From: Thermincola carboxydiphila
GTDB taxonomy: Bacteria; Bacillota; Thermincolia; Thermincolales; UBA2595
DNA length: 64,000 nt
Assembly: GCA_016841045.1 (NCBI GenBank)
Contig: JAENZX010000009.1
Location: 1-64,000, forward strand
Reading direction: 5' to 3'
Below the pieces are notes generated by a model. The model had not been told where the DNA came from, made no database searches, and was given only the letters and a program-made list of their open reading frames with translations. The position numbers and the translations under genes were made by a program. Below, piece after piece: positions 43,129-48,930 of this stretch; positions within the stretch are counted from its first letter, which is position 1; each line of letters opens with the position of its first letter.

Positions 43129-43881
43129 GTGTCTAAACTGCCTGGTAAGATTAAAAGCCTTAGATTCATTCTGGTAGGAATGTTAATAGTTATTCTAGCA
43201 GTCCTTACAGGATGTTCCCCCAAAAAAGCAGCAGTCGAAGAACCTACTATCCATGATAGTGCTGCTAAAGTAGAATGGTCCGAAGCTGTTGACCCCGGCG
43301 ATTCCAAAATGAAGTTAATAAGCGGTAATGTTAGGTATGTTTCAGGAAAGCTCAAAGCAAAAGACCTTAGCGCAACAAAACGTAAAGATCTATCAGAAAA
43401 CGGTCAAAAGCCCTTTGCAATTGTACTTACCTGTTCCGATTCCCGTGTTTCACCTGAGCTAATACTAGACCAGGGATTAGGTGACCTATTTGTTATCCGT
43501 ACTGCCGGTAACGTTGTCGACCCTATTGCTATTGGCAGTATTGAATATGCTGTGGAACATCTCCATACTCCCCTGATTATGGTACTTGGGCATGAGCAAT
43601 GTGGTGCCGTAAAAGCCGCCATCGAAGCAGGAGAAGGAAAAGTGGAAGGCAATCTAGGTGCAATAGTTGAAAAGATCAGACCTTCTGTAGAAAAAGCAAA
43701 AGCTGCTGGCGCAACAGGTGTTGACCTGCCGGAAAAAGCAACTGAAGAAAACGTTAAAGCAGTAGTAAAAGAACTGGAAGAAAAGAGCCCGATAATTAGA
43801 GACGCGCTTGGTCAGGGCACTCTCCAAATTATAGGCGCTAAATATGACCTCGATGAGGGAAGGTATTCTTCGATTAGATAG
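43129..43881 (+). CDS. Secreted beta-class carbonic anhydrase lipoprotein
   Basis: The 250-residue protein has a lipoprotein signal (FILVGMLIVILAVLTGC, lipobox LTGC near residue 29). The beta-carbonic anhydrase domain holds the zinc ligands in TCSDSR and GHEQCGA. Beta enzymes are usually cytosolic, so an exported lipid-anchored form stands out. It would hydrate CO2 at the cell surface. The start is unclear: GTG at 43129 overlaps its ribosome site, while CTG at 43138 (CTGCCTGGT) lies an ideal eight bases after GGAGG. Confidence 0.88.
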   Translation: MSKLPGKIKSLRFILVGMLIVILAVLTGCSPKKAAVEEPTIHDSAAKVEWSEAVDPGDSKMKLISGNVRYVSGKLKAKDLSATKRKDLSENGQKPFAIVLTCSDSRVSPELILDQGLGDLFVIRTAGNVVDPIAIGSIEYAVEHLHTPLIMVLGHEQCGAVKAAIEAGEGKVEGNLGAIVEKIRPSVEKAKAAGATGVDLPEKATEENVKAVVKELEEKSPIIRDALGQGTLQIIGAKYDLDEGRYSSIR

Positions 43882-44006: not shown

Positions 44007-44088
44007 GCCGGAGTGGCGGAATGGCAGACGCACACGACTCAAAATCGTGCGGGAAACCGTGTGGGTTCGACTCCCACCTCCGGCACCA
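44007..44088 (+). tRNA. tRNA-Leu (anticodon CAA)
   Basis: The acceptor stem GCCGGAG (44007-44013) pairs with CTCCGGC (44078-44084), followed by A and an encoded CCA. The anticodon stem CACGA/TCGTG encloses the loop CTCAAAA with anticodon CAA. The variable arm is long (class II), and the T arm has GGGTTCGACTCCC. It reads UUG codons. Confidence 0.95.
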
Positions 44089-44214: not shown

Positions 44215-44664
44215 TCACCTGTTCCAGTTTGGTGTCTTATCTAACCAACGAAGCACCTGTGCCATTGTCAATCCCCAAAGTAAACCCCCTGTATGGTTAG
44301 ATAAAACTGTTTGAATACTATGTTTGGAAATGATAGGAGTTTGTAAAAGTGTTGGTATCGCATAAACAAACATCCCTGTGGTAATCCCGAAAAAAGCCCC
44401 CTTTATTAAGTAGCCTCGTGAGGTTGTTAATGGAAATAAATACGCAAAAGCTATACCTAATAACCCTACCCATGTTAAGTGAATTATCAGAGCATAGAAA
44501 CCTTGAAAATGTGTTCTTGGCAAGTCACCGTAAAGTATGAACCCTGCCCAATCAATAAATCTAATTATCTTTAAGTTCAGGATATGAACGGCAATAACGG
44601 TCCATAAATTCATAGCAATTCCACCAACGACACCTGCTACTAAACCTCGAAAATATCTGTCCAT
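44215..44664 (-). CDS. Four-helix membrane protein, family A member 1 (149 aa)
   Basis: About four hydrophobic helices are seen: FRGLVAGVVGGIAMNLWTVI, IIHLTWVGLLGIAFAYLF, IKGAFFGITTGMFVYAI and HTGGLLWGLTMAQVL. It shares with the protein at 45933-46361 the pattern AGxxG, YGxxxxxxxxxxF, LxKGxxFG, SNxxGGxLxGLTM and VL+.L, so the two are paralogues. I do not recognise a named family. It is the last gene of a three-gene minus-strand set, 26 bp after a tetraheme cytochrome gene. Function unknown; a membrane partner of the cytochrome is one possibility. Confidence 0.8.
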   Translation of the reverse strand: MDRYFRGLVAGVVGGIAMNLWTVIAVHILNLKIIRFIDWAGFILYGDLPRTHFQGFYALIIHLTWVGLLGIAFAYLFPLTTSRGYLIKGAFFGITTGMFVYAIPTLLQTPIISKHSIQTVLSNHTGGLLWGLTMAQVLRWLDKTPNWNR

Positions 44665-44690
44665 ACGTTTACCTCACCTCCATAAAAACA

Positions 44691-45188
44691 TCATTTGTTA
44701 AACTTCTCTTGAGAAAAGATTTTCACCTTATGTCCTGTGTCTCTATGGCATTGAAAACAGGATTTATCAGACTTTATATACTCATAATGTTTCATATCTA
44801 ACCTCTTGGTATTTGGATAATTCCAATAATCCCCTAAATGACAGCCGATGCAGTTTTGCTCAAAAGCTATCCCGTTGGCAGTAACAGTATATTGTCGGGT
44901 AATATGCTGATAAACGTAATTAAGACCTCTCGCTTTGGAATGCAGTTTACCTAAAAAACCCCTAAATTCATGGCAGTAAAGGCATCCTACATTCTTATGT
45001 GGTGACGACTGCCAGGTAACATAATATGGGTTCACTTCATGGCAAGACCCACAAAAACGGGGAAACGAGGTAGCAAAATATGCTCCCATAAAAGTCACAT
45101 AAGCAATAACCGTAACCAAAGTAATAATTATCATAAGCCTTTTCCATTTTTTTAGTGGAGGTTTGCTATCTTTTAAAAAATTTTTCAT
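44691..45188 (-). CDS. Membrane-anchored tetraheme cytochrome c (NapC/NirT/NrfH-like)
   Basis: The ATG at 45188 (MKNFLKDSKPPLKKWKR) follows AGGAAAA and gives 165 residues. After a single N-terminal helix (LMIIITLVTVIAYVTFMG) come four CxxCH heme sites: CGSCH, CLYCH, CIGCH and CFQCH. This fits the NapC/NrfH group, which passes electrons from quinol to periplasmic or surface redox partners. No nitrate, nitrite or other terminal reductase is next to it. Both neighbours are small membrane proteins of one family, 26 bp away on each side, which is unusual. Confidence 0.9.
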   Translation of the reverse strand: MKNFLKDSKPPLKKWKRLMIIITLVTVIAYVTFMGAYFATSFPRFCGSCHEVNPYYVTWQSSPHKNVGCLYCHEFRGFLGKLHSKARGLNYVYQHITRQYTVTANGIAFEQNCIGCHLGDYWNYPNTKRLDMKHYEYIKSDKSCFQCHRDTGHKVKIFSQEKFNK

Positions 45189-45214
45189 TTTGTTTTCCTG
45201 CCTTGTCAAAAATA

Positions 45215-45664
45215 TTACCCTGCCACTTTTTTCTTACGGGTAATAAACACTAAGTAAAAGGTCGCTGCAACGCCGTAACTAACGTGTGCAGCCAAATCCA
45301 CAACTGCTTCCAGTTCTGTACGAAATATAAACGGTCTGGGTTCTACCATGTTTGGAATTACTATTACATGAACTATCCAAAAAACTATACCTAACCCTAC
45401 ACCTTTATAGTAAGCATAATCCCTGCCAAAATACTTAAATATAAAAGACAGAGCAATGCCTGCCAATGCCCCTACGAAAAAGTGAGTGGCAAAACCCAAT
45501 GCCCAACGTATTAAGTTCACTTCTTTAAATGGAAAAATCAATTGAGATATATAATGTGCTGTCATCGTTGTACCTAATATCAAGTAAGCAGGCGCATGTA
45601 TTAAGACATCCCCAACACTACCTAATAATCCTGCTATTATGCCGTCACGAATTGTATCTCGCAA
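45215..45664 (-). CDS. Four-helix membrane protein, family A member 2 (149 aa)
   Basis: The TTG at 45664 (MRDTIRDGIIAGLLGSVGD) has AGAGAGG upstream and gives 149 residues, the same as its relative at 44215-44664. The frame is open 76 codons further, but that stretch is antisense to a decayed DUF3231-like gene and has poor coding character. Helices include GFATHFFVGALAGIALSFIF, YKGVGLGIVFWIVHVIVI and AHVSYGVAATFYLVFI. The layout (IAGLxG, GA.AGI, KG.G.G, YG) matches the other four membrane proteins in this region. It starts the set with the tetraheme cytochrome. Confidence 0.7.
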   Translation of the reverse strand: MRDTIRDGIIAGLLGSVGDVLIHAPAYLILGTTMTAHYISQLIFPFKEVNLIRWALGFATHFFVGALAGIALSFIFKYFGRDYAYYKGVGLGIVFWIVHVIVIPNMVEPRPFIFRTELEAVVDLAAHVSYGVAATFYLVFITRKKKVAG

Positions 45665-45758
45665 TTTTATCCAACCTCTCTTTGCCCATTCATTACTATT
45701 GTTATCATTTCCGAAATCGGTATCTTTATTTCTAAAATCAGAAAGCATATACAATTTT

Positions 45759-45863
45759 GGGGCAGCATCGCTCCATGCTTTGGATCTAAAACAATGCGTC
45801 ACCACTGACAGGGTAAGAGGTATTTTAAAGGATATGTTTTTTTTGAGCTTTAACCTCGCGTAA
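45759..45863 (+). pseudogene. Decayed 3' fragment of a DUF3231-like gene
   Basis: Plus-strand translation gives GAASLHALDLKQCVTTDRVRGILKDM and a stop soon after. The intact gene at 47275-48261 has GAAWLHALALKQCITNDRIRGIFKDL at its second-domain end. Homologous sequence starts abruptly at about 45755 and loses similarity after 45835, so only about 25 codons remain. It overlaps the 5' end of the annotated frame on the other strand. Confidence 0.75.
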
Positions 45864-45932
45864 TTACGTGGGGTGTTTTTCCTATGAATCATCTATACGC
45901 AACTTGGTTATTCTATTTCATGGGTGATAACT

Positions 45933-46361
45933 ATGGATAAACTTCAAGCCGGAGTAACTGCAGGTATTGCAGGTTACATTATAACTTTTATGTTTAATAT
46001 ACCAATGCACTACCTTGGAATTTCGAAACTGAGGTATATGGACTTCGTGTCCGTATTAACCTACGGACATTTTGCCAAAAATGCACTGGAATCGTCTTTT
46101 GCTTTATTCATTACTGTTGTATGGTTTGTGTTTTTGGCATTAATATTTAGCAGATTTGCAGGACAGTCCCACTTAATTTTCAAAGGTGTGTCCTTCGGAG
46201 CAGGAGTATGGGTTGCAAGTTACTGGATAACATTACTTTTTCACATTCCAGAAGTAAAAGACATAGACGTAGGTACTTCATTTAGTAATCTAGCAGGGGG
46301 ATTTTTATACGGTTTAACCATGTCCTATGTACTAAAAAGACTAGTATACCAAAAATCGTGA
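45933..46361 (+). CDS. Four-helix membrane protein, family A member 3 (142 aa)
   Basis: The ATG at 45933 (MDKLQAGVTAGIAG) is chosen because it lines up with MDRYFRGLVAGVVG of the relative at 44215-44664; the frame extends three codons more. Helices: GIAGYIITFMFNIPMHYLG, FALFITVVWFVFLALIF, FGAGVWVASYWITLLF and LAGGFLYGLTMSYVLKRL. The ribosome site is weak (GGGTG). It is the only one of its type here not on a cytochrome transcript. Function unknown. Confidence 0.75.
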   Translation: MDKLQAGVTAGIAGYIITFMFNIPMHYLGISKLRYMDFVSVLTYGHFAKNALESSFALFITVVWFVFLALIFSRFAGQSHLIFKGVSFGAGVWVASYWITLLFHIPEVKDIDVGTSFSNLAGGFLYGLTMSYVLKRLVYQKS

Positions 46362-46692
46362 AGAAATATTGTTACTGTACCATCAAGCAAAAGAACAGTT
46401 CGGCGATAGTTCGTCACTGCGAATGAAGCACCGATGCTCCAACCTTCAAAAATTTTATAGAAATAGCTGTTCCGTCTTTTGTTGTGAAAAATGGAGTGCC
46501 CACTCTTCGAACCAGTCATTTTCCTTCATTTTCCTTCACTATAGTTTACTCTAAATTACATATACGTTAAAAAACCCCCTCCTTGTGGGAGGGGTAGCAA
46601 ATCATTATTTCTTAGCACAAATACAAAACCTTCCACAAATAACGTTAGTAAATAACTGGAACAATAAACTTACAAAAAATATTGTATGAGGG
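46362..46692. other. Gap with a GC-rich hairpin, no gene seen
   Basis: The only feature is the hairpin CCCCCTCC (46575-46582) / GGGAGGGG (46587-46594), with a T run on the minus strand, which would stop minus-strand transcription. A short frame at 46369-46554 has no ribosome site or family match. The rest is likely promoter for the next gene. Confidence 0.5.
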
Positions 46693-47232
46693 GTGATTAG
46701 GATTAAGAATAACTATCGTAAATTATTAATTGGAGCTGCTGCAGGATTGTTTGGAACTGTTGCCAAACGAATATTCTATCATGCTGTGGAAGATAAGCCT
46801 ACTCCTATTAACAATCGTATTTACCGCATTACTCGGGGTCAGGTACATTTGGACACAATGGAAAAGGAGCAGAGAATATCATTTAACGATATATTGCACT
46901 TTTTCGTAGGGATAATTGGAGGAGTTGGAACGCATTACCTGCAGAAAAGCAGGAAAGATAAAGGTGGGTTGATTGGGAGTATTGCCATTGGTGCTGTTAA
47001 TGACTCAATTAATTCTAATAAAGGAAAGAAGCTGCGGTCCATGCTGATTGGCAACTTGCTGTACGGTTTCATAACTAATCTTACAAATTTAAAACTAAAA
47101 GACTGGTTTTTAAATAATGACCCGTTAGAAGAATATCTCGAAGAAATGAAGCAAAGAGAAGAAAAAGAGGATATTGGGGCAAAGCCACTAACGAAATCTA
47201 AGGTAGTATTTAAAAAAAGAAGAATAAGCTGA
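46693..47232 (+). CDS. Membrane-associated protein, family A-like member 4 (179 aa)
   Basis: The 179-residue protein starts at a GTG with GAGG overlapping. The N-terminus, KLLIGAAAGLFGTVAKRIF, resembles the IVLGFIAGLIGNSAKLAGN of the protein at 48304. The middle, ILHFFVGIIGGVGTHYLQKSRKDKGGLIGSIAIG, resembles DFVLGAILGIPLVYMFRYTGKDKSALKGMGYG. GNLLYGFITNL matches NHTWYGLVTAL. The C-terminal 35 residues are strongly charged (EEYLEEMKQREEKED). The likeness was judged by eye. It lies 42 bp before the DUF3231-like gene on the same strand. Confidence 0.7.
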   Translation: MIRIKNNYRKLLIGAAAGLFGTVAKRIFYHAVEDKPTPINNRIYRITRGQVHLDTMEKEQRISFNDILHFFVGIIGGVGTHYLQKSRKDKGGLIGSIAIGAVNDSINSNKGKKLRSMLIGNLLYGFITNLTNLKLKDWFLNNDPLEEYLEEMKQREEKEDIGAKPLTKSKVVFKKRRIS

Positions 47233-47274
47233 TCATGGCGTAATCTCTGAAATAACTGGAGGAAGAGACAAATC

Positions 47275-48261
47275 ATGGTTTTTTCAATTACATTAAATAA
47301 AAAAGCAGAAAAAAAACAATCTATGGTAAACGTCGAAGAGGCTTACAACTTATGGGACCTGGCAACCGCAAAAGCAGCAATGATTAACCAAATGCAGATT
47401 TGGGAAGTTTACGCACATGACCCAGACCTCAAACTAATTATTGGGCGTAGATTAGAAAAGCTCAAAAATCAGTTCGAATCTCTTGAGGGTGAATTGAAAA
47501 AGTATTCAATCAGTGGGCCCAGACGTCCAATACAAGGTATGAATATTGCAGGTAACTCAGAAATTATTTTAGATGAAGACTTGGCGGAATCGTTCCTTAT
47601 TTGGCTTCAGGAGAGTGTTGAGCTGTTGTTTAGAGCCTTTAGAACTTCTACAAGCAATGATGCTATTCGGGCATTGTTCGTAAAGTTTCTTACTGATGCC
47701 ATTGATGAGTTGGATATACTCATTAAATATATGAAACTAAAGGGGTGGGTAGAAATTCCGCCTATGTATCCCAATATTCCTGCAGAAACAACCGAAAAAT
47801 TAGATGCAGGTGAAGCCTTTCATCTATGGGACCACCTTACTTTTCGATATGACAATATTGAACAAACTCAATTTTGGTATGAATATGCCTATGATGCCGA
47901 CTTTAAATTTTTGTTGAAAGCAGGTCTGCAGGAAACTCTTCAAAAACAAGCCAACATGTTAGAGAAAGAAATACTGAAGTTCGGTATGCCTTTGCCTAAA
48001 CCTCCATCAGGTGCTGTAGAATCAACAAATAATACAAACCTTTTGAAAGACTCAAATATGTTCCGGCTTCTTTTTACAGGCATTGTTGGGGCTGCATGGC
48101 TTCATGCCTTAGCATTAAAACAATGCATCACTAATGACAGGATAAGGGGGATTTTTAAGGACCTATTAGTGGAGGAAATTAAGATGCTCGATAAGTTGAT
48201 TTTGTTTGGAAAGTTGAAAGGATGGCTTGCAGTTGTTCCTCAATATAAAACAGTCAAGTAA
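47275..48261 (+). CDS. Tandem DUF3231-like (spore-coat/ferritin-like helical) protein
   Basis: The 328-residue protein contains two copies of a ~150-residue all-helical domain. Each begins EAYNLWDLATAKAAMINQ or EAFHLWDHLTFRYDNIEQ, has W-x-YA/H-D-x-D-x-K near residue 40-45 and 195-200, and ends with LKGWVEIPPMYP or LKGWLAVVPQYK. This is the pattern of DUF3231 proteins of sporeformers, some of which are coat-related. It is co-oriented with the preceding membrane protein. A decayed fragment of a second copy lies at 45759-45863. Function is unknown. Confidence 0.75.
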   Translation: MVFSITLNKKAEKKQSMVNVEEAYNLWDLATAKAAMINQMQIWEVYAHDPDLKLIIGRRLEKLKNQFESLEGELKKYSISGPRRPIQGMNIAGNSEIILDEDLAESFLIWLQESVELLFRAFRTSTSNDAIRALFVKFLTDAIDELDILIKYMKLKGWVEIPPMYPNIPAETTEKLDAGEAFHLWDHLTFRYDNIEQTQFWYEYAYDADFKFLLKAGLQETLQKQANMLEKEILKFGMPLPKPPSGAVESTNNTNLLKDSNMFRLLFTGIVGAAWLHALALKQCITNDRIRGIFKDLLVEEIKMLDKLILFGKLKGWLAVVPQYKTVK

Positions 48262-48285
48262 TCAGGAGAGGTCCGCACAGAGATA

Positions 48286-48318
48286 AAAGATTTGAGCGTT
48301 TGCTCAAATCCTTTTTTG
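48286..48318 (+). terminator. Terminator after the DUF3231-like gene
   Basis: GATTTGAGC (48289-48297) and GCTCAAATC (48302-48310) with loop GTTT are followed by CTTTTTT. Confidence 0.85.
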
Positions 48319-48930
48319 CTTTCTCGTTGGCACAGCAACAATATGTCTACGAACTTTGTTCTTATTATTTGGATGGCCTGTCTGGTCTGTTGCTTCAAAT
48401 ATTTCCTCAGTTGATTGTACTGCTTTCTTAGGATCTACAATTGGGTCAGTGTAAGACCTTGGTTCAGGAAACAAACTGGGGGCACCCAGTTTGTTTATTA
48501 CCAGGGCAGTCACCAGACCGTACCAAGTATGGTTGAACAAAGCAGACATGTTTGTTTGTGCATTAAGGGGAAAAACACCTTTATTTATTCCCATCAACCG
48601 ACCAATGGAGCCATACATTCCAATCCATGCAAAATGTCCATATCCCATTCCTTTAAGAGCTGACTTATCCTTTCCTGTGTATCTGAACATATAAACCAAC
48701 GGAATTCCCAGAATTGCTCCTAGAACAAAATCCGCAAGACCCCCAACAACTTTCCCGGTTGGCTTTTCGCGTTCCTTTTTGGTCATAAAGAGTCCACCAG
48801 CAATCTCCGGATACGTAGTATCAGATTTATAAAATACGTACCTATTTACCAGGTTACCTGCAAGTTTAGCGCTATTTCCTATTAGTCCTGCAATAAAACC
48901 TAAAACTATGGGGTCTTTTATTTTTTTCAT
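48304..48930 (-). CDS. Membrane protein, family A member 5 (208 aa)
   Basis: The ATG at 48930 (MKKIKDPIVLGFIAGLIGN) follows AGGAAGAG; the frame is open 32 codons further but without a better ribosome site. About four hydrophobic segments are seen, including VVGGLADFVLGAILGIPLVY and GMGYGHFAWIGMYGSIG. The C-terminal 45 residues are polar and proline-rich. It shares the AGL-G / GKDK-LKG / YGL layout with the other small membrane proteins to its left. Function unknown. Confidence 0.7.
   Translation of the reverse strand: MKKIKDPIVLGFIAGLIGNSAKLAGNLVNRYVFYKSDTTYPEIAGGLFMTKKEREKPTGKVVGGLADFVLGAILGIPLVYMFRYTGKDKSALKGMGYGHFAWIGMYGSIGRLMGINKGVFPLNAQTNMSALFNHTWYGLVTALVINKLGAPSLFPEPRSYTDPIVDPKKAVQSTEEIFEATDQTGHPNNKNKVRRHIVAVPTRKQKRI

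Follow-up and report, generated by a model that had tools for sequence, protein, structure and literature searches.

Five membrane proteins of a Thermincola gene cluster belong to a multicopy family distantly related to the germination protein FigP, with a possible role in the spore membrane

The presence of five small hydrophobic proteins side by side with a multiheme cytochrome and a DUF3231 protein raises the question of whether these genes form one system, and of how they came together. They lie between positions 44,215 and 48,930 of the window, i.e., the whole stretch of 64,000 nucleotides of Thermincola carboxydiphila DNA that was analysed. An earlier sequence-only reading had proposed an undescribed redox or spore-envelope system spread by local duplication. 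The genes on which it was built (five hydrophobic ORFs, a cytochrome with four CXXCH motifs, and a tandem DUF3231 gene) are all found where it had placed them. With revised starts, the cluster reads as follows:

44215-44664 (-): W44215, family member, 149 aa, small multi-TM protein, with GGAGGTGAGGT upstream of its start
44691-45209 (-): tetraheme cytochrome of the NrfH/NapC type, with an N-terminal TM anchor and four CXXCH motifs; start at TTG 45209 or ATG 45188
45215-45664 (-): W45215, family member, 149 aa with the corrected start, which is most likely TTG 45664 (AGAGGT upstream) and not ATG 45892, ORF 45215-45892 being over-extended
45757-45832 (+): decayed remnant of the 3' end of a DUF3231 gene, recognised by a nucleotide match to the intact gene
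45933-46361 (+): W45924, family member, 142 aa, start corrected to ATG 45933
46693-47232 (+): W46693, family member, 179 aa, the most divergent of the five and first gene of a conserved pair
47275-48261 (+): tandem DUF3231 (Coat F-like, ferritin-like) protein, 328 aa
48304-48930 (-): W48304, family member, 208 aa, start corrected to ATG 48930

A carbonic anhydrase with a lipoprotein-type N-terminus is encoded elsewhere in the window, at 43129-43881 (+).

Single-sequence phmmer searches linked 44215 to 45924 (E 2e-14) and 45215 to 48304 (E 1e-7), and in such searches 46693 and 48304 matched common relatives. Profile comparison, which had been suggested as a check, gave a consistent result: a family profile built without any window protein recognised all five with hhalign, at probabilities ranging from 96.7% (46693) through 98.7% (45215), 99.3% (45924), and 99.6% (44215) to 99.9% (48304). 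The common layout that had been noticed by eye is also borne out, as AGxxG, KGxxxG, and YGL are conserved columns of a 40-member family alignment. The majority motif of this alignment is of the type DR..lG..AG / TGrD....KG / YGL, and its nearly invariant residues are D, G, G, K, and G. We conclude from these sequence comparisons that all five membrane proteins are members of one superfamily with a common ancestry. The fold was predicted with confidence for one member, W45924 (AF2, pLDDT 94.6, pTM 0.86), as four membrane helices, the first two of them linked through a short one (residues 3-27, 35-44 [short], 51-75, 81-102, and 113-139). A Foldseek search of this model against the PDB returned nothing below E 1, and the family profile gave only weak photosystem matches among PDB sequences.

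The family is much larger than the cluster. Its profile has 35 matches in the 4.16 Mb draft genome of the organism itself, about 30 of them full-length, and 8 to 19 matches in each of five almost complete genomes from its taxonomic family. Most copies in the genome are scattered, and there are a few tandem groups (on contigs C14, C30, and C55, and in the window). A tree of 120 proteins places 44215, 45215, 45924, and 46693, the window members reported from it, apart from one another, the closest relatives of each lying outside the window. For example, 44215 shares 83% identity with a protein from a different genus (G004) and has a close relative on contig C75 of its own genome, and 45924 shares 54% identity with a copy encoded on contig C2. 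Because the nearest relatives of its members lie elsewhere, the cluster is not the product of local duplication, and this part of the sequence-only reading must be given up.

Pfam searches with the window membrane proteins gave weak matches to DUF6789, YqhR, or DUF1440. YqhR has been renamed FigP as the required partner of SpoVAF, with which it forms an ion channel amplifying germination signals, according to PMC11837508 and PMC11841064, citing Gao 2024; the partnership is also supported for B. anthracis (PMC13059800). We compared the 40-member family profile with a reference set of six true YqhR proteins. The hhalign match has a probability of 96.2% and a score of 60.9 over 132 columns spanning the four helices, at 17% identity. 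Single YqhR sequences scored 37.6-50.3, whereas the controls remained much lower (reversed, 21.0; shuffled, ≤18.4; profiles of GerAB, DUF421, and CAAX proteins, ≤18.9; 104 other multi-TM proteins, ≤24.5). In addition, bridging proteins from two genomes (G020 and G223) exceed the Pfam cut-off for YqhR and also match the family profile, and a low-confidence model of YqhR has the same helix order, including the short helix between TM1 and TM2. On this profile evidence, the family is distantly homologous to YqhR/FigP over its full length. It is not within YqhR proper as judged by PF11085, against which the window proteins score at most 16.1 bits (45924) for a gathering score of 27, and a search of the organism's genome gave no YqhR match at E 1e-4. 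What we take to be the yqhQ-yqhR-aroQ-pepQ type of neighbourhood, found around loci L150-L155, is absent from the window. Such distant homology is no proof of a common function.

Does the family have a link with the spore? Among 398 genomes of the same phylum, 83 encode the family and 339 encode SpoVAC. The latter is present in 82 of the 83 family-positive genomes versus 257 of the 315 family-negative ones (Fisher p 8e-6, not corrected for phylogeny), and the sole family-positive genome lacking it is 78% complete. Within the phylum, the family is thus almost confined to SpoVA-carrying genomes. The organism itself carries GerA-family genes in six locations, i.e., five GerA loci and one SpoVAF-like gene in the spoVA locus on contig C2. 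The latter is classed as such because it immediately follows a SpoVAEa-like gene, with SpoVAC about 3 kb away. The neighbours of family genes point in the same direction. Pfam classes among immediate neighbours, which overlap, include COQ7/ferritin-like (5), DUF3231 (3), Coat F (2), GerAC (2), and rubrerythrin-like proteins (2); among 146 control genes further off, all of these fall outside the 25 commonest families and SpoVAC occurs twice. Of the 29 DUF3231 loci in family-positive genomes, 4 adjoin a family gene, versus 0.24 expected (p 1e-4). All five proteins found with the ferritin-like profile among 1333 genes are direct neighbours of family genes, a count biased by the use of such neighbours as seeds. 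One family member adjoins a gene for a GerAB-type spore permease and one adjoins SpoIIP. At the locus with the GerAB permease (L158 in G052), a hydrogenase-like ORF overlaps the family gene on its other side. In the survey of neighbours, family genes were not repeatedly found beside gerA or spoVAF.

A gene pair is formed by 46693 and 47275. The latter exceeds the Pfam cut-offs of both DUF3231 (55.6 bits; PF11553 gathering score, 29.6) and Coat_F (26.2 bits), and begins 42 bp behind 46693. The pair recurs with the same 42-bp gap in a genome of another genus (MAG HGW-Firmicutes-14, G001), whose copy of 47275 is 52% identical; hence the membrane protein said to precede a tandem DUF3231 gene belongs to a conserved pair. 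In a scan of one genome per species, no relative of 47275 was found beyond this genome. The DUF3231 gene of G001 (L123:6494-7411) seems to carry a frameshift close to its 3' end, with its last domain running on in another frame. In the window, the remnant at 45757-45832 is 80% identical in nucleotides to the intact DUF3231 gene over 76 bp (E 6e-16; tblastn E 2e-8) and overlaps, on the opposite strand, the overlong 5' end of ORF 45215-45892. This match indicates that the locus formerly carried a second DUF3231 copy. A paper treating DUF3231 together with the spore coat was not found in the literature searched.

We thus have, as established features, the kinship of the five proteins, one predicted fold, the copy number and scatter of the family, its near-restriction to SpoVA-carrying genomes within the phylum, its distant homology to FigP, and the pairing of 46693 with a DUF3231 gene. 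From these we infer the location, partners, and function of the proteins. The best reading, which we regard as about evenly balanced between right and wrong when taken as a whole, is that of a superfamily of small membrane proteins with four helices, undescribed so far, much multiplied in a spore-forming lineage and acting, like FigP, in the spore membrane. Its members would be located in the forespore or in the inner membrane of the spore, where they may serve as nonenzymatic partner subunits that stabilise or tune channels of the GerA/SpoVAF type or other spore-membrane complexes, and the 46693-47275 module would connect one such protein with an envelope protein of the Coat F/ferritin-like kind. 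With about 30 copies for five GerA loci and one SpoVAF, a simple one-to-one partnership seems less likely. A bolder version, speculative and quite unlikely in our view, is that in spore-formers outside the Bacilli FigP has been replaced by many diverged FigP-like subunits, which one and the same cell would use interchangeably to tune SpoVAF/GerA ion channels, and of which some would be linked to envelope proteins of the Coat F/ferritin-like kind, 47275 being an example. The earlier idea of an undescribed redox or spore-envelope system therefore survives in part, for the single family, the DUF3231 link, and the spore context, and fails for its redox side and for local duplication. We found no description of the family in the literature searched. 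In Bacillus, FigP was recently shown to be indispensable as the partner of a germination ion channel; the family is a candidate for its equivalent in other spore-formers, a large one with multiple copies in many genomes of the lineage. Proteins so far annotated as no more than DUF6789-like thereby gain a testable function, and a FigP-like membrane protein is seen in a new pairing with a DUF3231/Coat F-like protein.

The reading of these proteins as FigP-like spore-membrane subunits has a competitor, which we hold to be rather unlikely: they could be general-purpose small membrane proteins akin to DUF6789/DUF1440, vegetative and multiplied by ordinary paralogy, their spore link being a by-product of the spore-forming lineage. 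This would agree with the DUF6789 profile, which in a control search also matched non-spore-formers (E. coli and archaea). Motifs of sigma F, G, E, or K were not enriched upstream of family genes (with Bacillus consensus motifs and guessed start sites). Clustering of the neighbours by sequence showed that the recurrent ones are mostly syntenic orthologues. Most neighbours are diverse, unrelated housekeeping genes, and family genes are frequently flanked on both sides by genes of the opposite strand (44/130 vs 80/716). The spore reading is weakened by the negative promoter result, by the variety of settings in which the genes lie, and by the occurrence of DUF6789 in organisms that form no spores. 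The general-purpose alternative must, however, accommodate the near-constant company of SpoVAC, a profile similarity that is specific to FigP over other membrane proteins, and the excess adjacency to Coat F, ferritin-like, and DUF3231 genes.

The setting of the cluster could also suggest an AT-rich mobile element or island, integrated beside a tRNA gene and carrying unrelated cargo that merely gathered family members. A tRNA-Leu(CAA) gene (44007-44088, +) abuts the cluster, whose GC content is about 35-42% versus 42-45% around it; the decayed DUF3231 remnant may be a mark of rearrangement, and 44215 is closely related to proteins in other genera. But no duplicated tRNA end was found in the window, nor an integrase or transposase among the ORFs of the cluster, and the GC3 of the cluster is similar to that of several neighbours, which makes an island improbable.

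The redox reading depends on the cytochrome. It matches Cytochrom_NNT (PF03264) above the cut-off (58 bits), falls short of the NrfH equivalog TIGR03153 (62 bits for a cut-off of 134.2), and resembles the NrfH structure 2j7a. As had been remarked, a terminal reductase is missing: neither here nor at five orthologous loci is NrfA or another reductase found next to the gene. At each of these loci the clear orthologue (45-59% identity) is a solo gene in unrelated surroundings, and three of the five lie between genes that read as cobalamin and hydrogenase-maturation genes. The survey of their neighbours, proposed as a test, went against a shared system, as none of the five ever adjoins a family gene. 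Conversely, in a survey of 131 family genes, none outside the window was found directly beside a multiheme cytochrome. In G004 and G007, which belong to the same genus, a cytochrome and a family gene are about 10 kb apart with cobalamin genes between them, and we judged this to be chance. With 22 NapC/NirT-type matches spread over more than 10 places in the organism's genome, it is no surprise to meet a stray tetraheme cytochrome gene. This cytochrome appears to be an orphan of the NrfH-like, quinol-oxidising type whose place in this gene run is a matter of chance, and is probably functionally unrelated to the membrane family. That 45215, the cytochrome, and 44215 form a quinol-oxidising complex with the small proteins as membrane subunits is highly improbable, despite their tight spacing on one strand (gaps of 5-26 and 26 bp) and the family members found about 0.6 kb from a NiFe hydrogenase small subunit on the other strand (L172 in G001), overlapping the hydrogenase-like ORF at L158, and upstream of a CydAB-like pair (L219 in G004), given these neighbourhoods, the deep divergence of the window members from each other, and a family alignment that contains no conserved haem- or metal-binding residue. 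As a separate observation, a pair of genes (NAGPA-like, 320-330 aa, and 405-421 aa) adjoins one cytochrome orthologue (L074, G012:C13), and apparently the same pair adjoins the closest own-genome paralogue of 44215 (L031, G000:C75). The homology of the two pairs was judged by eye, and their sharing may be chance.

Among known systems, the cytochrome shares with NrfH/NapC the N-terminal membrane anchor, the four CXXCH motifs, and the PF03264 match. DUF1440 (PF07274) matches 44215 and 45215 weakly and partially (14.7 bits for a cut-off of 34.7). The best-matching curated family is DUF6789 (PF20587), a Pfam family lacking a described function, on which no functional paper was found in the literature searched. 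It matches 44215, 45924, 48304, and, in the genome search, 45215 over their full length; 48304 scores 26.4 bits in one search and 27.4 in another, around the gathering cut-off of 27.1, whereas 44215, 45215, and 45924 score below it and 46693 has no match. Among DUF3231/Coat F ferritin-like proteins, 47275 is a tandem of two such domains and differs from the others by its pairing with a FigP-like membrane protein, an arrangement present in one other genome. Finally, YqhR/FigP and the window family differ in number, one copy versus about 30, but they have in common the four membrane helices, the additional short helix that separates TM1 from TM2, a colinear 132-column profile match, and their occurrence in spore-formers, here together with a SpoVAF-like gene in the same genome.
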